NCBI GenBank assembly: GCA_016795105.1
Contig: JAEUIH010000039.1
Span: 1-64,000, forward strand
Direction of reading: 5' to 3'
DNA: 64,000 nt
Source of the DNA: Planctomyces sp.
Lineage (GTDB): Bacteria; Planctomycetota; Planctomycetia; Planctomycetales; Planctomycetaceae
The notes beneath the pieces were generated by a model. The model did no database searches and was not told the DNA's origin. It saw only the letters and a list, made by a program, of their open reading frames with translations. This document shows, piece after piece, positions 7,001 through 53,106 of this stretch (within the stretch, counting starts at the first letter, position 1; the number at the start of each line of letters is the position of its first letter). The position numbers and the translations under genes are program-made.

Positions 7001-9520
7001 CACCCGATAGATCCGGCCGCGGTCATTTCCCGAGAAGACGTTCAGTTCCGCAAGAGTTTCATCCGGAATCCAGCGAGGATGTTCGATCACGTAGCGGTAC
7101 ATATCAACGATCCACAATCCGCCATCAGGGCCGGTTCGCGCCTGTACCGGACGGAACCAGCGATCAGTGGAAGTCAGGAAGTCGGTTGTTTGTTCGTTTG
7201 GTGCACGCTGACCTCGAATGACCACACCATCGCGAGTGAGCTGTTGACGATAGACAAGCTGATTGACGGGCTCACATGTGAATGAATTGTTGGAGTAATC
7301 GTCTCCAAGCAAAGAATCGCGGTAGATGCCAACACCACAGGCTGCCGTTGCTGCTCCTGCGGGACCGGAGAGTTTGAAGAGTACCAGATTGCTGGCGGGA
7401 AAGAGTTTTCCAGCGTTATCTCCGGAAGGGACGGAGACTGAGGTCGCGGCCGGCCGAATGAACGGGTTTCTTCGCATGTAATGTTCATCGACAGGATAAT
7501 GTCGAATCAGGCTGCTGTTGTCACAACCATACCAGTTACCCCAGTCATCGCGAACTCGGCTTTGTTGAGTTCTCCCGGTCACGGGTTCGATCATACCCGT
7601 ATCGGGGTTGAGTCGAAAATCCCGGTCGGTGACATCTACTATTTCTCCGCGTTCATTGGTAATACGCCCTCCGAACAGTCCTGAAGATCCGTAGAGCCAG
7701 TGATCAAGACCCCACTGCAGACTGTTGACCCGAGCCTGTCCATTGTGAGTTGCAAAGCCGGAAAAGAGGACGCGGCTCACGTCGGCCTTAGAGTCTCCAT
7801 CCGTGTCTTCGGCGTAGATAATATTCGGAGCATCACAAATCAGAGCTCCGTTTCGCCAGACTTTGACATCGGTTGGATATCGAAGTCCATCCAGGAAAAC
7901 GGTGGCGGTGTCGAATCGGCCATCACCATCGGAATCAGTCAGGACTCGGATTTCACTGGATTCAGAGAACTCTTCTTCAACACCATGAGCGTAGTCGTTC
8001 ATCTGGCAGACCCAAAGTCGTCCATCGAGCCCAAAGTCAATCGCAACCGGGTCGGTGATCAGTGGCTCTGAAGCCACCAGTTCGATCTTCAGGTTGTCGT
8101 GAGTTGTCATGCATTTCAGAGATTCCTCCGGCGATTTTGGTGGAATGCCCTGAGTACCCTCCTGAATGTGAAAGCTTTCCGGAACCTGTTGCATGACTTC
8201 GTTGACGATTCTCTGTTCAAGTCCCCCTTTGAGAGTCGTGGGCAGAGCAAAGTAAGGGATTTCTGCGCCTCCGCCATAGCCACCTTCTGCAACCAGGCGT
8301 TCTGAAGGTATGTATGCGCCGAAGTCATTACTGTAACCGTGAATCCAAAGCTGTTCCGGGTTGAGGTGTTTTCTGAGTCGAATGGAATAGTCCACGCAGA
8401 CTTCTCCAGCGAGAAACACCATGCAGAGCTGGTCGCCGAAGGAGATCGTCTGAATGGGATATGGCAGCGATGTGGGCAATGTTGCGCCCATGCGAAGTTT
8501 TTCAAGCTGCGTCAGTGCGTTATAGCCTGGAGCCCCTCCCTTTGCGGCAAGCGCCTCGTATTCGGACTGAGTTGGAAGGGGGTTGAATTCAAGTTCAATT
8601 CGATTCAACGAGGAATGGATATCGCTGCTCAGCGGTGACAATCCGTAATTGATCAGACGCTGAATCTCTGAAGCAATTTCAACACCCTGTTGTTCAGCGA
8701 TCTCAGTTTTGTCACCGGTAACACCTGATGATGGGTTCTGATCAGAGCCGCATCCGATGGACACCATTCCAACAGCGTTCGGAAAGAGTCGTTCAAGGGA
8801 AGCTGCTGCGTATCCAGCCCAGTCGCCACTGATCAGGTTGTGCGACAGGGTGACGCAGTGACATGCATAACTTGTGTAGATCGCCGTGATCTCATCGGAT
8901 CCATTTCGGACAACCAGCACAGGCAGGCTGTGGTCAGTCGGTCCGCCGGCGGTCCGGCGGTTGACAGCAAAGCCGGTACTTCCCGTACCCCACTCCAGAC
9001 GTGCGGGCTGCATCTTTTGAATCGCTTCGAGGATTACAGACTCCAGAGCATTGGTGAGCTCTTCCGTGTATTGGTCGATATGAGCCTGATGTTCAGGTGG
9101 GATCGGTTCAGCGAAGATGTTGTCTGACGCTCCATTGACTTTGGGAGCACTGTGAGTGTGAGTAAAGGTCAGGGCGATCTGATGACGTGACACACCCGTC
9201 TTTGAGGAGACTCGTCGAGCAACTTCGTCGACCATTGAGAGCCGAATACCGAGGTTATCAAGAGTCACGATCACAACGGACGCTTCCGGGGGGGCTGCTG
9301 CATGTCTGATCGCAAGTGCTTTGGCCCAGATCGGCTGTGAAATGCCTTCAGATTCCTTCTTCCGGACAGCGAAGCCGTTCAGACGAATTGGGTAATCGGG
9401 AGAGACGTTGTGTGCGGCAGCTCCTGCGAAGTACGGCAGAGCTTCACCGGCGGCAGACGTGCTGCCGGTGATAAGGGCTACGAGTGTCAGAATGGCTGAA
9501 GCCAGCAAAGAAGTACGCAT
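4001..9520 (-). CDS. Giant secreted fusion: ceramidase-like + PVC-type dehydrogenase + HEAT repeats + CxxCH haem domain
   Basis: This 1839-residue protein has a signal peptide (MRTSLLASAILTLVALITG). Residues about 30-460 resemble the N-terminal part of neutral/alkaline ceramidases, with TFTHTHSAP and a conserved CGSDQNP loop. Residues about 480-860 match the planctomycete membrane-bound dehydrogenase (PVC-type) beta-propeller: EPLITDPVAIDFGLDGRLWV, several DSDGDG Ca-type loops, and VDMYRYVIEHP. An alpha-helical HEAT-like stretch follows (about 870-1230). A c-type haem motif CSICH then sits in a typical planctomycete haem-binding domain ending in PEGIEKDITKQQLADLITWL. The C-terminal part has a CBM-like jelly roll and further HEAT-like helices. 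The ATG at 9518-9520 gives the clean signal peptide. Substrate unknown. Confidence 0.85.
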   Translation of the reverse strand: MRTSLLASAILTLVALITGSTSAAGEALPYFAGAAAHNVSPDYPIRLNGFAVRKKESEGISQPIWAKALAIRHAAAPPEASVVIVTLDNLGIRLSMVDEVARRVSSKTGVSRHQIALTFTHTHSAPKVNGASDNIFAEPIPPEHQAHIDQYTEELTNALESVILEAIQKMQPARLEWGTGSTGFAVNRRTAGGPTDHSLPVLVVRNGSDEITAIYTSYACHCVTLSHNLISGDWAGYAAASLERLFPNAVGMVSIGCGSDQNPSSGVTGDKTEIAEQQGVEIASEIQRLINYGLSPLSSDIHSSLNRIELEFNPLPTQSEYEALAAKGGAPGYNALTQLEKLRMGATLPTSLPYPIQTISFGDQLCMVFLAGEVCVDYSIRLRKHLNPEQLWIHGYSNDFGAYIPSERLVAEGGYGGGAEIPYFALPTTLKGGLEQRIVNEVMQQVPESFHIQEGTQGIPPKSPEESLKCMTTHDNLKIELVASEPLITDPVAIDFGLDGRLWVCQMNDYAHGVEEEFSESSEIRVLTDSDGDGRFDTATVFLDGLRYPTDVKVWRNGALICDAPNIIYAEDTDGDSKADVSRVLFSGFATHNGQARVNSLQWGLDHWLYGSSGLFGGRITNERGEIVDVTDRDFRLNPDTGMIEPVTGRTQQSRVRDDWGNWYGCDNSSLIRHYPVDEHYMRRNPFIRPAATSVSVPSGDNAGKLFPASNLVLFKLSGPAGAATAACGVGIYRDSLLGDDYSNNSFTCEPVNQLVYRQQLTRDGVVIRGQRAPNEQTTDFLTSTDRWFRPVQARTGPDGGLWIVDMYRYVIEHPRWIPDETLAELNVFSGNDRGRIYRVVPKNGRLHTWQHADTTQPALLAAALNTPNGTTRDLIQQKLAWEILPETDLPAVREELSRILTKSPWPAARLSALCTLNHLNLLSQDALQSALKDPHGEVRRHAVRLSESLLSQSETLRSIVLSLSDDPAPEVKLQLAYSLGNTDHPDAAPIIAKLALHSDNSWLTAAALSSLNTKNLPAVLKTILGSEGLPPQLRNDLIASAAGLADEDSVSEVFKSVLDTPGERRTWQYTAFADLLRGLDRRPLKSELWKDSTVAVQGKSMLDSARRLVSDSSDTEKIIGAISLLSGLNGPASTSILGQPEESDSLLLADKVSPQSPVSIQEAAIDALTRRGGLNDANSLLNCLSRTTPALRTRAIRGLLSRSSWKPLVVDALKSRALNADDLSAADREQLLNGLEGSVLDQATLLLTYGFSNRQQLVRDWQDVLRLPGNAADGRAVFNKRCSICHKLDNIGYDVGPNLAALTTRSGSFLLTAILDPNRDVDARYNSYVAALDDGRTVNGILISETSTSLTLREQEGREHVLLRNQIEEFRNTGRSAMPEGIEKDITKQQLADLITWLMELGPPPKSFTGNMPQTISADQNGQFILPASSAAIYGGDIAYESDSPFHNIGYWHGVNDAAAWTLTLEMEQTLDVWLDYSCHSDSAGNTLQIDGSSEPLLFVVQSTGGWDKYRPALIGRLTLPAGTHRLTLRPERSFRGPALLDLRTVALVPDGHSPPMAAASESIIRTDNPTQIAKLLLDDSVSQSDREQLIAQHPALSAELITEMAKGLGKADEEEYRRIPWIWRVAIAAGKRNDSKELLAILDASLPGTDQPLRDWQSVVVGGGIINGISQTGVWPRDRLDRLIAGNNDLSARWDHSIAQASIMSDNEMVRSGTRYDALRMIAMESFEVHGRQLVRYLSPCINDELQMGAISGLSDMAAADAGIAIAENIGHFSDYNRTLAVAALLRTTPRTQRLLKAIESQELTTEQIDQSTRNALRSHSDAIIRQKAVQLFPETE

Positions 9521-9635
9521 CGGATGTACCCTGATCAAACCGCGTTAAAGAGCAGCAGGTACTTCGGATGTTGGCAGTTGCCGATCCATTCATCAAGTGG
9601 GAGGCGGCATTCAGCAGAATGAATTCAGAATGGCA

Positions 9636-11435
9636 TCAAAACGGCCAGACCACAGGAATCAAAATTAAGGATATGATCAGCAGGATCAAATTGAGAGGGA
9701 CTCCCACTTTGACAAAGTCGCTGAATCGATATCCACCTGGCCCAAAGACCATCATATGGGTTTGATAGCCAACAGGAGATGCAAACGAAAAGGATGCAGC
9801 AAGAGCGACAGTCATAACGAAGGGGCGAGGACTGGAATCTGTGAGAGCTGCTGCCTGCAACGCAAATGGAAATGCGAGTGCAGCAGCACCGTTGTTGGTG
9901 ATCAGTTCTGTCAGGAACATGGTCATGATATAGATTGCTGCCAGAGTTGCTCTTGGACCCAGTGGCTGAGTCCAGTCAACGATTTGACCTGAGATGTATC
10001 GAGCAGCTCCGGTTTCGTCGAGGGCTGCTCCGAGGCCGAACGATGCGCCAATTGAGATCAGGACGGGCCATTCGATTGCCTGGCGTGCATCGGATGCGGA
10101 CATGCAGCGAGTTACGATCATCAGACCGCCCGCCACAAAAGCGCCGAGCATAGCGGTTTCACTCGAGCCGAAAAACATTGCGACGAGCAGCCCGGCAAAA
10201 ACCACCAGCGATACCCACCAGCGATCATGTCGCAGTGACTGAGATCCAGCAACATCGCTGACCAGATAGAAGTCCGGGTTATTGCGATGAGCCTGAGCGA
10301 AATTTGGCCCAACCTGCAGGAGTAACGTATCGCCGGACTCAAGGCGGACATCGCCGATCTTTGTTGTCAGACGTTCGCCATTGCGATGGATGGCCACGAT
10401 CGCGGCATTGTAGTGTGAACGAAACTGAGCTTCCTTGACGGTCTGGCCAACGAGCGGAGAAGAACGACTGACAACGGCTTCGCAGAGTCTCTTCCTGCGC
10501 TGTTCCTGAGCCGACTGGTCCGTTGTTTCACCCGCTGGCTCGAGTCCTGGGATCTTCTTGAGGTCAACGATTGTGCTGACCACGCCGGTGAACACAAGCC
10601 GGTCTTCCGCTGAGAGTACCGTATCCGGACTGACTGGCGTGAGTACTGTTCCCTGTCGATCGATTTCAGTGAGAAATAAGCCGGGAAGCCGCCTCAGGCC
10701 TGCCACTTCAACGCTCTGCCCAACGAGTCGACAACCAGGAGTGACTACCATTTCAACGAGGTATTCTCGGCGAGTGTCTCCGAATTGCTCAATGAGTTCC
10801 TTACGTTCGGGCAGCAGGCGGCGACCTATGGTCAGCAGGTAGATCGAACCAACGATCGCGCATGGTACTCCCACATAACCGATTTCAAAGAATCCCATCT
10901 CCGGAAGAGCTTCGGCAGTGACGACCTTGTTCGCAACAGCTTCTGCCATCTTGCCGTCAACGACAAGATTTGTACTGGTACCGATCTTGGAACAAACTCC
11001 GCCAAGAATCGTCAGGAACGAAAGTGGGATCAGCAGTTTCGATGGTGCAATTCGATTCTTCCGGCACCATGACAAAACCACCGGAATCATCATTGCAACA
11101 ATCGGCGTGTTATTCAGGAAGGCTGACGTTGCGACACAGACCAGCGTGAGCATCAACAATCCGCCTAGCTCGGTTCGAACTGGTCCCAGGACTTTGCTGC
11201 CGATCATGTCCACAACGCCGGTTTCCCGCAGGCCGGCAGTTACGAGGAACAGTGCACCGACCATCAGAAACGAATTGCTGATGAATCCCGAGAATGCTTT
11301 TTGTGGAGAAAGAATGTCAAGCAGCGACAGCAGAATAATTGCCGCCATGAACACGAGGTCGGCCGGCTTTTCGCGGATCAGGGCCACCAGCACGCAGATT
11401 GTCACTATGACGGTGATCCAGGCTTCCTGTGACAT
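9636..11435 (-). CDS. SLC13/DASS-type permease with two TrkA-C (RCK_C) domains
   Basis: A 599-residue membrane protein. The N-terminal half (residues about 5-205) has several transmembrane helices with the re-entrant FLNNTPIVAMMIPVV motif of the ion-transporter superfamily. Two cytoplasmic TrkA-C modules follow (about 215-280 and 305-370: GCRLVGQSVEVAGLR and SPLVGQTVKEAQFR). The C-terminal half carries the second helix bundle with ITNNGAAALAFPFALQAA. This SNT/ITN-N-(T/G)A pattern is typical of SLC13-like transporters that import dicarboxylates or sulfate with sodium; the real substrate is not evident. A GTG two codons upstream (11439-11441) is an alternative start. It stands alone on the minus strand. 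Confidence 0.85.
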   Translation of the reverse strand: MSQEAWITVIVTICVLVALIREKPADLVFMAAIILLSLLDILSPQKAFSGFISNSFLMVGALFLVTAGLRETGVVDMIGSKVLGPVRTELGGLLMLTLVCVATSAFLNNTPIVAMMIPVVLSWCRKNRIAPSKLLIPLSFLTILGGVCSKIGTSTNLVVDGKMAEAVANKVVTAEALPEMGFFEIGYVGVPCAIVGSIYLLTIGRRLLPERKELIEQFGDTRREYLVEMVVTPGCRLVGQSVEVAGLRRLPGLFLTEIDRQGTVLTPVSPDTVLSAEDRLVFTGVVSTIVDLKKIPGLEPAGETTDQSAQEQRRKRLCEAVVSRSSPLVGQTVKEAQFRSHYNAAIVAIHRNGERLTTKIGDVRLESGDTLLLQVGPNFAQAHRNNPDFYLVSDVAGSQSLRHDRWWVSLVVFAGLLVAMFFGSSETAMLGAFVAGGLMIVTRCMSASDARQAIEWPVLISIGASFGLGAALDETGAARYISGQIVDWTQPLGPRATLAAIYIMTMFLTELITNNGAAALAFPFALQAAALTDSSPRPFVMTVALAASFSFASPVGYQTHMMVFGPGGYRFSDFVKVGVPLNLILLIISLILIPVVWPF

Positions 11436-48569: not shown

Positions 48570-48730
48570 CGCGAGAGAATCAGCTGGAAGCACCAGGTTT
48601 CGATCATGAGAGCCGAGCGGGCTTGTCGGGAAATGGAACGCAGAGACGGGGAGGCGCAAGGACGCAGAGAAGGCAAGCACAGAGCGAGTACGAGTACGAG
48701 TACCGCGTTGCGGAGTACGAGTACGAAGGT
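48570..48730. repeat. Repeat island unit, copy 1 (GAGACGSGGAGGCGCA family)
   Basis: Right after the CPBP gene, a mosaic begins. CGATCATGAGAGCCGAGCGG (48601-) is shared with about 52719 and, with changes, 49228. An ACGCAGAGACGGGGAGGCGCAAGG block follows, then GAGTACGAGTAC repeats. The block has no reading frame with coding character. It is the first of four related copies in 48.6-53.1 kb. Confidence 0.7.
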
Positions 48731-48758
48731 TACGTTTTTTGGAGTTGCAGTGCGATTC

Positions 48759-49002
48759 AACCCCAACGGGGTTTCACAACAAAGCCTGGGGTCGCCGCCC
48801 AGCGGCGCACCCCAGGAAATTCAGCAGCGGACACCCCGAACCCCAACGGGGTTCCACAGATTCGAATCCGCTGCACGACAACTCCGCAACGGTGTCAGTC
48901 TTGTGGAACCCCGTTGGGGTTCGCTAGCATTTGCGTCACCTGACCTGGGGTGCGCCGTTGTCACGGCGACCCCAGGCTTTGTTGTGCGACCCCGTTGGGG
49001 TC
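48759..49002. repeat. Cluster of palindromic REP units (ACCCCAACGGGGT)
   Basis: Four 15-bp palindrome copies lie at 48759-48773, 48839-48853, 48907-48921 and 48988-49002 (the last two in reverse orientation). They alternate with two larger hairpins of CCTGGGGT...ACCCCAGG type at 48785-48816 and 48944-48975. This resembles a BIME-like cluster of paired inverted REPs. No gene is visible from 48570 to 50026. Confidence 0.8.
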
Positions 49003-49159
49003 AATCGCAGAATCGCAAAGGCGAACCATGCCATGCAGCTGCATTGTTATTGTTGCGCAGGTGATCGCGGTTGCGGTCGATTTGGAGTGGCAGGTTTTAA
49101 CCGCGGTTTGCGCGGATCGCTCGGATGAATTGCGCGCTGGAGCGATTGTTGAACCCCCA

Positions 49160-49340
49160 GCGTTCCTCGTACTCAGTGAAACGGTACTTGTACTCGAAAA
49201 GACACTGTTAAACGCACCAGTTGTCGGTCATGAGAATCGAGAGGGCTTGTCGGGAAAAGATAACGAAGAGATGCGAAGAGCGATCACACGCTTGTTCCAT
49301 GGAGCGGTTTGCGAGTCTCGGAGAGACTCGCCTACGTTGC
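49160..49340. repeat. Repeat island unit, copy 2
   Basis: Contains CTCGTACTCAGTGAAACGGTA, the GTCGGTCATGAGAATCGAGAGG segment, and a terminal perfect hairpin GCGAGTCTC-GGA-GAGACTCGC (49312-49332) followed by CTACG. The same hairpin and flank recur at 53082-53106. Confidence 0.7.
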
Positions 49341-49900: not shown

Positions 49901-49919
49901 TCATGAACCAATGAAACAC

Positions 49920-50012
49920 CAGAACCAAACCATGCACGGGAGTGGCGGTGGCCAGCGTTTGAAAAAAAAATCAAAACCAACGCCTGCCGCCCCGTGATGC
50001 GGGACGTTATGC
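49920..50012 (+). repeat. attC-like recombination site 1
   Basis: About 93 bp that can fold as one long imperfect hairpin with extra-helical bases on one side. It has an R''-like AACCAAAC at 49923, an arm GCACGGG..GGCGG..AGCGTT (about 49934-49959), an A-rich centre, a second arm AACGCCTGCCGCCCCGTG (about 49978-49996), GATGCGGGAC, and an R'-like GTTATGC (50006-50012). The SUKH gene begins 14 bases after it. That is the expected geometry of an integron cassette boundary. No integrase gene is seen. Confidence 0.5.
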
Positions 50013-50026
50013 GGTGAGAGTAAGCT

Positions 50027-50485
50027 ATGACTGAACAGGAATTACAGAGCCTCGAAGAGCGAGTCGGCTCAATACTCCCTCAGGTTTATCGCGCACTGCT
50101 GCTGGAGTTTCCACCCGAGCTAAGGGTCGCAAATCGTCTCGATTACGAAGACGAAAACGGTGAGCCGGTGATGTTTGCGACATCAGACCGAGAACTCTGT
50201 GATTCGCTGGAGTCTCTGGTAGCCCTGAACTTTGATGATCCTGAGAATTACCAGTTCAGCGCCAAACTTGAAAAATGGCCCGATGCATTTTTCATTATAG
50301 GCAGTAATGATTCCGGCGGTGTGTGGGCGATCAATTTGAATGACGACAATGCCGCGGTACACTTTGCCGATCAATCGACAAGCATTTTTGACCCCGAAAC
50401 CGACGGGCTTGAGGGATACTTCGAGCAAGAGGCTCCTTCAGTTCGTAATTGGGCTGACCGCCTGATCGCGGCGCACCGGAGCTAA
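50027..50485 (+). CDS. SMI1/KNR4 (SUKH) family protein
   Basis: A 152-residue acidic protein with the SUKH fold pattern: LEERVGSILPQVYRALLLEFPPELR at the start, WPDAFFIIGSNDSGGVWAIN in the middle and VHFADQSTSIF, then NWADRLIA at the end. SUKH proteins are often immunity proteins against polymorphic toxins, but stand-alone copies exist. No toxin gene is adjacent. It begins just after an attC-like site and is flanked by gene-free DNA, as in an integron cassette. (The first quoted segment spans residues 9-33.). Confidence 0.8.
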   Translation: MTEQELQSLEERVGSILPQVYRALLLEFPPELRVANRLDYEDENGEPVMFATSDRELCDSLESLVALNFDDPENYQFSAKLEKWPDAFFIIGSNDSGGVWAINLNDDNAAVHFADQSTSIFDPETDGLEGYFEQEAPSVRNWADRLIAAHRS

Positions 50486-50968
50486 GGCGCGATACTGACG
50501 AATCCGCATAACCATGAGACTTTGACTTGGCAACGATCGGAGTGAGCGTGTGGTTCTACGGATTGGGGTGGAGCGGAGAGTGCCAGTGAATGAACGAGCC
50601 CCTGGAGCCGAGGCTCAAGGCCCTTTTTCAGGAAGCCAGGTGGCTAATGTTGGCAGCTCGGAGAGCGATCCTGCACACCCGGAGGCGTGATTCAGAAATC
50701 GTGGCGACTCGGTTGCGGAGCCACGCCGCTGCCCAGCCGGAGTGTCCAGCCTCGATGCAGCAAGACGAGTCGATTCAACATTTCGGGTTCGAGTTCCCTC
50801 GTGTTGATTTCCTGCGTCCTTCTGGTTGCCGCTGTTCTTTGCTGTGGCCAAAGTTTTAGTTTTTTTTCATTGAGTACAAACAGAGCATCCGCTGGTATTC
50901 TACGCATAAAGATCTGCCCCGTCCCCCGCCGAGTTGCGGTCCTGCTTTTTCCACTTCCCAATACTCTG
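50486..50968. other. Gene-free interval
   Basis: Between the SUKH and hydrolase genes, 480 bp without a credible gene. Short frames occur (50590-50859 plus, 50615-50851 minus) but lack ribosome sites and coding character. A GAGCCGAGGCTC palindrome is near 50607. A possible decayed attC (TGGCAAC near 50528, GTTGGCA near 50650) has matching outer boxes but no pairing inside. Confidence 0.5.
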
Positions 50969-51778
50969 ATGCACGAAGCTTGCACAATCACGAAACGAAA
51001 GCCAACACCGGTTCGCCGCTGGATTCGTCGTGGCTTTATCACTTGGGCGATTATTGCGACAGGCTGGCTTGCCAACTCTGTACGTACTCAGGGTGTTCAT
51101 CCTTCGCTTCTGGAAAACAGTGCTGCGGTATCCGTCGTCGACGATGGCATGTCAATTGAGTTTCGGCCCGAGAACCATGGGGGTGATACGGCGATTGTTT
51201 TTATCTGTGGATCGGGAATCGGCGCCGAAGCATATGCTCCCCTGCTGCGACCCATCGCGGAGGCCGGGTATCCGGTATTCGTGGTGAGATTACCGATGAG
51301 ATTTGCTCCATTGGAATCTCACAAGCAGGGAGCCATTGATCGTGTGTTCTCTCTCATGAAAGGGCATCCGGAGATTTCGCGTTGGGTTGTTTCCGGGCAT
51401 TCCCTCGGGGCCGCTATCGCGTGTCGAGTCGTCGAGGCTGAGCCTTCCACGATTGCGGGCTTAGTGCTGTTAGGTTCAACTCACCCCAAACGAGCTGACC
51501 TGTCATGGTGTCAATTTCCCGTAACGAAAGTCTACGCATCAAATGATGGCATTGCTCCATCTTCCAAAGTTATCGCGAATAAGGACTTGCTTCCAAAAAG
51601 CACGAAATGGGTGGAGATCGATGGCGGGAACCATTCGCAGTTCGGCCACTACGGCCATCAACTCTTCGACGGCTCGGCAACCATCACCCGCAGCGATCAG
51701 CAGGAAATCGCTCGTTCAGCTATGATGGACGTTGTTCAGGACGTCGCCGAAAATCGAGTCGAACCAACAGGGCTTTGA
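50969..51778 (+). CDS. Alpha/beta-hydrolase (fold-5 type), membrane-anchored
   Basis: A 269-residue protein starting at ATG 50969, with a basic N terminus and a membrane helix (GFITWAIIATGWLAN). It follows the pattern of the alpha/beta hydrolase fold-5 family: IVFICGSGIGAEAYAPLLRP, VRLPMRFAPLES, the nucleophile motif VVSGHSLGAAIA (Ser about residue 143), VYASNDGIAPSS and the C-terminal GGNHSQFGHYG (His). Substrate unknown. It lies between two attC-like sites, though 256 bp before the second, so its status as a cassette gene is uncertain. Confidence 0.8.
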   Translation: MHEACTITKRKPTPVRRWIRRGFITWAIIATGWLANSVRTQGVHPSLLENSAAVSVVDDGMSIEFRPENHGGDTAIVFICGSGIGAEAYAPLLRPIAEAGYPVFVVRLPMRFAPLESHKQGAIDRVFSLMKGHPEISRWVVSGHSLGAAIACRVVEAEPSTIAGLVLLGSTHPKRADLSWCQFPVTKVYASNDGIAPSSKVIANKDLLPKSTKWVEIDGGNHSQFGHYGHQLFDGSATITRSDQQEIARSAMMDVVQDVAENRVEPTGL

Positions 51779-52033
51779 CTTCGCGACGTTGGGAGAGATC
51801 GCGTGGTTTAGCGGATCGGATGTGGAGTAGGGAGGACAGGTGGAAGAACGAGCTGGTTCAGCGTCTTGCTCTCGAGCTGCATCGCAATAATTTTTCCGGT
51901 ATCGTTTCTGACAGTCAGTAAAAACGGAGCATCTGCGGCGCTCCCCTCAGACAGAGCGACCACTCCCGATTGCCAGACATGAACCCTTCACAGTACAATT
52001 CGCACTCGACATAGTCCGCCGCGATAACGGCTT

Positions 52034-52124
52034 ACTTGAACACTCTCATGCAACGGAGCCGGCGGTCGGGCCGGTTTTGAGATTAACGCGTCTCGCGCCG
52101 GTCCGCTGATGCGAGTCGTTCGCA
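52034..52124 (+). repeat. attC-like recombination site 2
   Basis: About 91 bp with R''-like CTTGAAC (about 52035-52041) and R'-like GTTCGCA (52118-52124), which are largely complementary. The arms ACTC-(TCAT)GCA-ACGGA-GCCGGCG and (inverted) CGCCGGTCCGCTGATGCGAGTC pair with unpaired bases on one strand. The following gene starts 17 bases downstream. The rest of 51779-52033 holds nothing recognisable. Confidence 0.45.
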
Positions 52125-52141: not shown

Positions 52142-52672
52142 ATGCCAGTCAATCATTCGAGCCCCAGTCGACTCTGTATGGTTGTTGCCCTGCGATTCTG
52201 TCTCGTTTTTCTTCTCAATATGTGGCTAATCGCACAATTCATGCTGTTGGACGGCCAAATCGCATTGCCAATCGGCACGTTCAAAGTGTGCGGTGATCCG
52301 GGCGGAGCCTATTTCGGCTATCTTCCTCCGCAACCGTTAATTGGAGTCAATCCGGAGCTTCGACTCATTGACTATTCATCAACTCAGACGTTGGTCAATG
52401 TGCGAGACGGTCTTGAGAAAAATCGCCGCTCCATTCTTCAGTTGCCGGGGCTCCGCGTGTGGCGGTCGATTCTCTCGCTGGCACATTTTGATCGGATCGT
52501 GGTGTACGTTGGCTACTACGTCCTGCTGTTTACAATCTTGATGGCAGATGTGGCTTTTCATCGTCGCACCGTTAAGGTCCTTGTGCAACGACTAGCTGCA
52601 AGGATGGCAACATCTGGTGAACAACGCGATAGCGATCTCCCCCACATTCTTCCTCGTACTCGTACTCAGTGA
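52142..52672 (+). CDS. Unknown membrane protein
   Basis: A 176-residue protein with an N-terminal helix (LRFCLVFLLNMWLIAQFMLL) and another near residues 130-150 (VVYVGYYVLLFTILMADV). The external loop contains TFKVCGDPGGAYFGYLPPQP. I start it at ATG 52142, after the attC-like site, rather than ATG 52109 inside it; AGGA lies upstream. The last residues (LPRTRTQ) and stop codon come from a repeat-island unit that begins near 52645, so the original C terminus may have been replaced. Function unknown. Confidence 0.5.
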   Translation: MPVNHSSPSRLCMVVALRFCLVFLLNMWLIAQFMLLDGQIALPIGTFKVCGDPGGAYFGYLPPQPLIGVNPELRLIDYSSTQTLVNVRDGLEKNRRSILQLPGLRVWRSILSLAHFDRIVVYVGYYVLLFTILMADVAFHRRTVKVLVQRLAARMATSGEQRDSDLPHILPRTRTQ

Positions 52673-52850
52673 AACGGTACTCGTACTCGAAACGACCCCG
52701 TTGAACGCGCCAGTTTTCGATCATGAGAGCCGAGCGGGTTTGTCGGAAAAGATAACGCAGAGACGCGGAGGCGCAAGGGCGCAGAGAAGGCAGGATAAAG
52801 ACGAATTCATTCTTTGCGTCTCTGCGCCTCCCCGCCTCTGCGTTAAATTT
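52645..52850. repeat. Repeat island unit, copy 3, with long hairpin
   Basis: CCTCGTACTCGTACTCAGTG at about 52653 starts the unit. It includes TTTTCGATCATGAGAGCCGA (as at 48.6 kb) and an imperfect inverted pair, 52755-52789 (AACGCAGAGACGCGGAGGCG...) with 52815-52848 (...GCGCCTCCCCGCCTCTGCGTT). This would form a hairpin of over 30 bp. It ends the unknown membrane gene. Confidence 0.75.
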
Positions 52851-52917
52851 TTCAGATTGCCGCGACATGCCTGAAACCGAAATCAGAAAAGTGAGCCTGA
52901 ACGTTACTGGAAAAGAC

Positions 52918-53106
52918 AACGCAGAGACGCGAAGGCGCAAGGGCGCAGAGAAGGCAAGCACAGAGCGAGTACGAGTACCGCTTTGCTGAGTACGAGTACG
53001 AAGGCTGTATCTTTTATGGCTGTAGCCGCGTCTCTCCGAGACGCGAAGAGTGTTCACACGCTCGTTCCATGGAGTGGTTTGCGAGTCTCGGAGAGACTCG
53101 CCTACG
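52918..53106. repeat. Repeat island unit, copy 4
   Basis: A further copy: AACGCAGAGACGCGAAGGCG, GAGTACGAGTACCGCTTTGC, the hairpin CGCGTCTC-TCC-GAGACGCG (about 53030-53048), and GCGAGTCTC-GGA-GAGACTCGC (53082-53102) as at 49.3 kb. The end of the repeat coincides with the stop codon of holA (53102-53104). Confidence 0.75.

Follow-up and report, generated by a model that had tools for sequence, protein, structure and literature searches.

Two kinds of attC-targeting element, group IIC-attC introns and IS1111-attC elements, were the only ones found in the open-access literature that we searched. Group IIC-attC introns enter attC at its R'' foot (TTGT/T), in the orientation opposite to the cassettes (PMC7923331) and keep outward promoters (PMC8876359), while IS1111-attC elements target one end of attC (Tetu and Holmes 2008; Post and Hall 2009, cited in PMC11187229). 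A Shewanella integron carries the IS91-like element ISShvi3, which has been noted beside attC; the paper describing it states no target rule and reports no case of an IS that interrupts an attC site (PMC9229058). Members of the IS91 family keep a GAAC/CAAG target tetranucleotide at one end. A cluster of attC sites lacking an integron integrase is called a CALIN in the definition of IntegronFinder 2 (PMC9024848). Here, we analyzed a window, meaning the whole stretch of 64,000 nucleotides under study, which is contig C324 of a planctomycete genome of 8.9 Mb in 391 contigs. It carries a small CALIN in the intergenic region between the CPBP gene and holA, with two or three cassettes (SUKH, ORF3 and probably a hydrolase). 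This cassette CALIN has likely been invaded at its attC sites by an element, here called E, which is present as two decayed, internally deleted copies.

The genome falls in the genus of Fuerstiella (Planctomycetota), together with the MAGs Fuerstiella sp. Bin_49_1 (G001) and Planctomyces sp. F1-80-MAGs062 (G002). In G001, CPBP (9434-10048) and holA (10150-11178) are separated by a gap of 102 bp, in which no attC, SUKH, hydrolase or ORF3 was found, and in the window the distance from CPBP to holA is 4.5 kb; the cassette group of the window is therefore an insertion. Fixed positions of these genes in orthologous regions, which would have refuted the original prediction of an integrase-less cassette region, are contradicted by G001, where holA is the neighbour of CPBP. 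Dispersed repeats (GTACTCGTACTCG units, CGCAGAGACGCGAAGGCGCAAGGGCGCAGAG and GAGTCTCGGAGAGACTCGCCTAC) lie at 48639-49335 and 52656-53105, and within the window they form these two clusters only, on either side of the cassette island. A long, near-perfect palindrome (CCCGAACCCCAACGGGGTTCCACA...TGTGGAACCCCGTTGGGGTTCG) occupies 48835-48925, with a related copy close by (48759-48988). This palindrome and another strong one at 52750-52848 were rejected as attC sites: both repeats are symmetrical and lack extrahelical bases, and the attC model does not match them.

Two attC sites were identified on the forward strand. Site 1 (49919-50012) is bounded by R'' CCAGAAC (49919-49925) and R' GTTATGC (50006-50012), and site 2 (52035-52124) by R'' CTTGAAC (52035-52041) and R' GTTCGCA (52118-52124). 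They were scored with a covariance model, R1, trained on 48 attC sites from elsewhere in this genome, none of them in the window; IntegronFinder's own model was not the one used. The proportion of paired cells in the R1 stem is 94.8% as compared to 72% in shuffles, with 210 double changes versus 66. Site 1 reached 53.3 bits (E 4.5e-13) and site 2 reached 67.6 bits (E 3e-17), and beyond them the best match of this model in the window had an E of 1.3, nothing convincing. An Rfam search of the window gave no match. At both sites, the R'' and R' boxes end in AAC and GTT, the two paired arms follow the R''-L''-L'-R' build, and the extrahelical bases are confined to the 5' arm (CATgCA...GGAg; CATgCAaCGGAg versus CATCAgCGGA), which is the polarity of canonical attC. 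The bottom strand of site 2 folds into one hairpin with the R box (folding z -2.5, 6 of 200 shuffles equally low), while the folding energy of site 1 is unremarkable (z -0.2), and on energy alone site 2 is the sole standout. Both sites are genuine attC; their recombination by an integron integrase is inferred from sequence. The original prediction had claimed attC architecture for them, with boxes GTTATGC and GTTCGCA at the 3' side and unpaired bases on one strand of the arms only. These claims held against a model built without the window and supported by covariation, with both sites matched by the model and only site 2 standing out in the bottom-strand folding.

The genome contains at least 96 attC sites, most of which belong to large arrays with a head-to-tail order; the number is a lower bound from 108 scored candidates. 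A structural scan of related contigs showed dozens of sites of ~90 nt that share this build and follow one another head to tail at intervals of a few hundred bases (C337, 15.5-33.6 kb; C7, 0.3-19.5 kb; C35, 5-14 kb; C111, 257-273 kb). In this genome (G000), attC arrays were observed in contigs C337, C7, C35, C111, C103, C360, C12 and C23. R1 attC sites also occur in 28 of the 40 genomes of a sample of relatives (lower bounds). In several relatives (G009 C170, G013 C3, G018 C90 and G007 C1) R1-type sites adjoin a full, divergent IntI, and they are therefore attCs that belong with real integron integrases.

No integron integrase was found in the window, and a TIGR02249 (IntI) search of the genome gave no match above the cut-off and none at E<=1e-40. 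The weaker matches in the genome are Xer-type or other tyrosine recombinases; among the promising ones, those that were translated were rejected as Xer-like or as a truncated E recombinase (256 aa). An IntI might have been missed because the assembly consists of 391 contigs. Full IntI proteins above the cut-off are found in the same-genus genomes G001 and G003, and likewise in 38 of 150 family genomes. The arrays without detectable integrase are likely to represent parts of one large, fragmented integron or else several big CALINs.

Along the arrays, the first bases of a cassette are complementary to its own R'', as in the start/R'' pairs GTTCGCC-GGCGAAC, GTTATGA-TCATAAC, GTTCGCT-AGCGAAC and GTTCTGG-CCAGAAC of C337. 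The R' of site 1 is the start of the SUKH cassette (GTTATGCGG, 50006-50014, forward strand), which is the exact reverse complement, at 9/9 positions, of the R'' box of the cassette's own attC (CCGCATAAC, 50504-50512, forward). The gene of this cassette (50027-50485, forward) encodes a solitary SMI1/KNR4-type immunity-like protein of 152 aa (PF09346, E 1.8e-7, above the gathering cut-off). No hairpin lies behind its R'' box, and the left end of one copy of E, copy A, directly adjoins it. An alpha/beta hydrolase ORF follows (50687-51778, forward; PF12695, E 5.6e-40), the true start of which is likely near 50968, and at the end of this gene there is an R''-like box, GAGTCGAAC (51756-51764, forward), positioned before the left end of a second copy, copy B. 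The own attCs of SUKH and the hydrolase seemed absent because the element copies sit between R'' and hairpin. The hydrolase is only a probable cassette, since no cassette start matching its R''-like box was found. ORF3 (52142-52672, forward; 176 aa) is a membrane-type cassette gene that begins 17 nt behind the R' of site 2 and matches no family in Pfam or NCBIfam. Its 3' attC is missing: no matching R'' box was found downstream, and its end enters the dispersed repeats.

The cluster meets the definition of a CALIN in the number of attC sites (two, 2.0 kb apart), in their structure (R''-L''-L'-R', GTT in R', extrahelical bases on the 5' arm) and in the absence of a nearby integron integrase, as far as a fragmented assembly allows; the cassette genes lie shortly after R'. 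It departs from a CALIN in that its attC hairpins are split by element copies. Several claims of the original prediction are settled here. A solitary SUKH gene in a cassette held, as did gene starts 14 and 17 bases behind the 3' boxes (SUKH at 50027, ORF3 at 52142) and an integrase-less, CALIN-type region, with no IntI detected in the window or genome-wide. That the two sites bracket SUKH and a hydrolase held only in part, as this is not one two-gene cassette and each gene ends at its own R''-type box. The SUKH R'' box and both element copies had been missed. Without IntI, we infer that the cassettes would stay immobile unless an integrase came in trans. By itself, the CALIN of the window adds a member to a known class; the element that it exposed matters more.

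The attC-like segment behind SUKH, designated type B, recurs in the genome, as does the segment before site 2, and the two are the ends of a single element, E. Copy A (50513 to ~50893, reverse strand), recognized by BLAST to other genome copies, is decayed: it has a left type B end (50513-50632) and a remnant of the 5' region of a recombinase gene to ~50893, the right end is lost, and the right limit was judged by eye. Copy B (51765-52040, reverse strand), behind the hydrolase, is 276 bp long, internally deleted (MITE-like) and located at AA|C of R''. It keeps both ends, which are like those of other copies, and BLAST gave 13 further matches in the genome. This copy is the left edge of site 2 and contributes CTTGAA of its R'' box; the 5' box CTTGAAC, which had been described as only partly matched, is so because the inserted element supplies it. 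The subterminal hairpin CCGCCGCGATAACGG (52016-52030), at the recombinase end of the element, is conserved among other copies and here differs by one base. Copy B also contains a sigma-70-like promoter, TTGCCA-N18-TACAAT (51970-51999, forward; 10/12 consensus), which points outward toward site 2 and ORF3 and rests on the consensus match alone. The same TTGCCA-N18-TACAAT, facing the next cassette, is kept in most E copies of the genome.

All 22 left ends of E are preceded by a variable RYYYAAC. The R'' to the left of E is complementary to the cassette start at 8-9 of nine positions in 10 of ~18 testable copies, and the R'' of the cassette is therefore intact beside E. Behind the recombinase (right) end, an attC follows in register in 21 of 25 copies from four genus members, not all of them independent events because copies may have common ancestry, and in 13 of the 21 copies examined in other genera. 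With ~100 attCs in 9 Mb, this placement cannot be chance. The located attC copies are all at R'' and all inverted relative to the cassettes (34/34 for each). As copies outside attC exist (in a DUF4157 gene, at L161, L170 and L180, and at eight loci of other genera), attC is preferred and not required. The recombinase end of a full-length E in G002 (L074; contig C112, 1043) was observed within a gene of the DUF4157 type, where it lies at an AAC codon and not at an attC. Whether non-attC targets are hairpins, as for group IIC introns, was considered and is not claimed: only L161 departs clearly from shuffles (z -3.6), and most do not.

An exact empty site was available for one relative. On the E. 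coli IncC plasmid RCS41_p, a full-length relative of E (recombinase 39% identical) lies inverted between aadA1 and the attC hairpin, with the junctions TGTCTAA|CAAATAAGG...GCGGCTTCGTTCAA|CAATTCGTTC. The empty aadA1 attC site, TGTCTAA|CAATTCG, equals the joined flanks at 91/91 bases, and the uninterrupted aadA1 attC has matches at >=99% in at least 1872 plasmid records. The junction falls precisely at AA|C of R'', with TAAC as the target. The junctions together with this empty site show that E enters directly behind R'' (RYYYAA), ahead of the C with which the hairpin side begins. The same ends and junction rule were found at the attCs of Salinivibrio and of two Photobacterium plasmids; at the E copies of P. 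ganghwense and Herpetosiphon no attC was evident at the insertion. The split aadA1 cassette belongs to a class 1 integron, cmlA1-aadA1-E-qacEdelta1-sul1, on this E. coli IncC plasmid (L214, NZ_LT985243.1), and most of this E relative occurs in one plasmid record only in the collection searched. On Herpetosiphon aurantiacus pHAU01 (L218), an E relative lies between caspase-like and NACHT-domain genes. We found no description of the AA|C targeting rule in the open-access literature searched; subscription journals were mostly outside this search, and an earlier account is possible.

Near-complete copies of E encode a tyrosine recombinase on the strand opposite to the cassettes. In G002, the recombinase (75% identical) is followed by an IS91-family transposase, and the full-length copy L074 matches NF033538 (301 bits) and the Pfam families Phage_integrase, Y2_Tnp and Zn_Tnp_IS91 (PF04986, PF14319). 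The recombinase and the IS91 transposase are complete in L074, in RCS41_p and in vibrios. No IS91 transposase of this kind was found in the window copies or in their own genome, where the copies are internally deleted. Against TIGR02249, the E recombinase scores 164.2 bits with a cut-off of 265 and is matched in two stretches, leaving the IntI-specific region unmatched; weaker copies cover positions 3-181 and 237-303 only. The E recombinase is not IntI. We rejected a decayed integron platform (intI-Pc-attI) as the source of the recombinase remnants and of the conserved stretch preceding site 2: the G002 homologue is followed by an IS91 transposase and is below the IntI cut-off.

At least two body types have common E ends. 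The right end consists of the hairpin CCGCCGCG..AGCGG plus CTTACTTGAAC. The ends of an E circle form an attC-like pair, CTTGAAC...GTTCARG in planctomycetes and GTTCAAC...GTTGAAC in RCS41_p, with a predicted circle junction of CTTGAA|CCAATAAGG. The covariation of the type B stem is modest (8 double changes versus 2.2 in shuffles). E itself satisfies the cassette rule that the start is complementary to its own R'', but not that of direct orientation at R' (G|TT), its attC copies being inverted and at R''. An E that seems intact, having its recombinase and the two ends (L143, JANSWS010000307.1, 4896-7507), was observed within an attC array of another planctomycete MAG, and a mini copy of ~165 bp (L099, G001 C43, 2123-2290), with two element ends round a unique core, is still at attC.

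Among the described systems, group IIC-attC introns resemble E in using the R'' foot (TTGT/T, as compared to TTG|TT for E), in their inverted orientation, in parting the gene from its attC, in their outward promoters, and in occurring also in CALINs and outside attC (PMC7923331, PMC8876359). They differ in enzyme, as the introns consist of a ribozyme and a reverse transcriptase, whereas the enzymes of E are a tyrosine recombinase and an IS91 transposase; the window gave no Rfam match, and the E proteins belong to Phage_integrase and Y2_Tnp. IS1111-attC elements use an RNA-guided DEDD transposase (PMC11187229), which E, with its tyrosine recombinase and Y2 transposase, does not have. The IS91 family, including ISShvi3, shares the Y2/IS91 transposase with full-length E, but E junctions keep no GAAC/CAAG target. 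IntI is a tyrosine recombinase acting round attC (AA|C and G|TT), as we infer for the E recombinase, but it differs in its model score and in the IntI-specific region.

The target, orientation, precision and protein content of E are shown. Catalysis by its recombinase, E circles and promoter use are inferred, and no activity has been shown. In the mechanism that we propose, a folded attC would receive an E circle at its R'' foot through a single crossover at AA|C made by the E recombinase. The cassette R'' would be left whole and E would provide a new R'', leaving a legal R'' on both sides and an array that is formally legal. An outward promoter in E, inferred from its sequence, may drive the cassette behind it. 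A bolder reading is that E encodes a second attC recombinase, distinct from IntI, which uses the R'' foot, and that E is a self-mobile cassette landing in integron arrays of at least two phyla and bringing promoters to silent cassettes. We offer this reading tentatively, with the balance tipping slightly against it.

Two alternatives to invasion by means of the E recombinase are unlikely. In the first, the Y2 transposase would insert the element by IS91-type rolling-circle transposition, with an element end abutting a GAAC/CAAG target. The IS91 transposase of full-length copies speaks for this view, as does the fact that planctomycete E copies terminate in GAAC. However, the full cassette R'', including TAAC, is kept on the left, and an original GAAC would be unfit for the cassette starts. 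In RCS41_p the target is TCTAAC and the element brings its own TTCAA, so the tetranucleotide does not represent a target that was kept. GAAC targeting was rejected because of cassette-start complementarity and the aadA1 empty site. In the second, IntI itself would integrate E in the form of a cassette circle, with R'' serving as a double-stranded attG-like target. The E circle contains an attC-like site, and IntI-mediated cassette insertion at attG, outside attI and attC, has been reported (Loot et al. 2024, cited in PMC11023631). Against this, all 34 attC copies are inverted at R'' and none is direct at R', the arrangement favoured by IntI; moreover, E encodes its own recombinase and no IntI was detected in the genome.

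A third alternative, that there is no inserted element, is very unlikely. Type B would be another attC type, the body an ordinary cassette, and the junctions would result from IntI shuffling at R' (G|TT). It is supported by the attC-like folding of type B with some covariation (G-C to C-G, 6 sequences) and by the fit of the type B R' GTTCARG to the body R'' CTTGAAC under the cassette rule. However, the conserved unit is type B plus body, with a variable R'' on the left and a variable hairpin on the right, whereas shuffling would conserve body plus hairpin, and the uninterrupted aadA1 site breaks at AA|C, not G|TT. A reading of both sites as chance hairpins or terminator-like ones, for which only the ordinary folding stability of site 1 speaks, is all but excluded by E values of 3e-17 and 4.5e-13 from a model with deep covariation and by the exact complementarity between cassette start and R''.

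For invasion by E, our preferred reading, these results place beside the group IIC introns a family that uses the same R'' foot and the same inverted orientation with another type of enzyme, and that ranges over planctomycetes, vibrios and a class 1 resistance integron on an IncC plasmid. The putative outward promoters in short, deleted copies bear on the expression and retention of cassettes that are far from Pc or in integrase-less clusters. The E recombinase would offer a partner for comparison with IntI on the choice of strand and foot.
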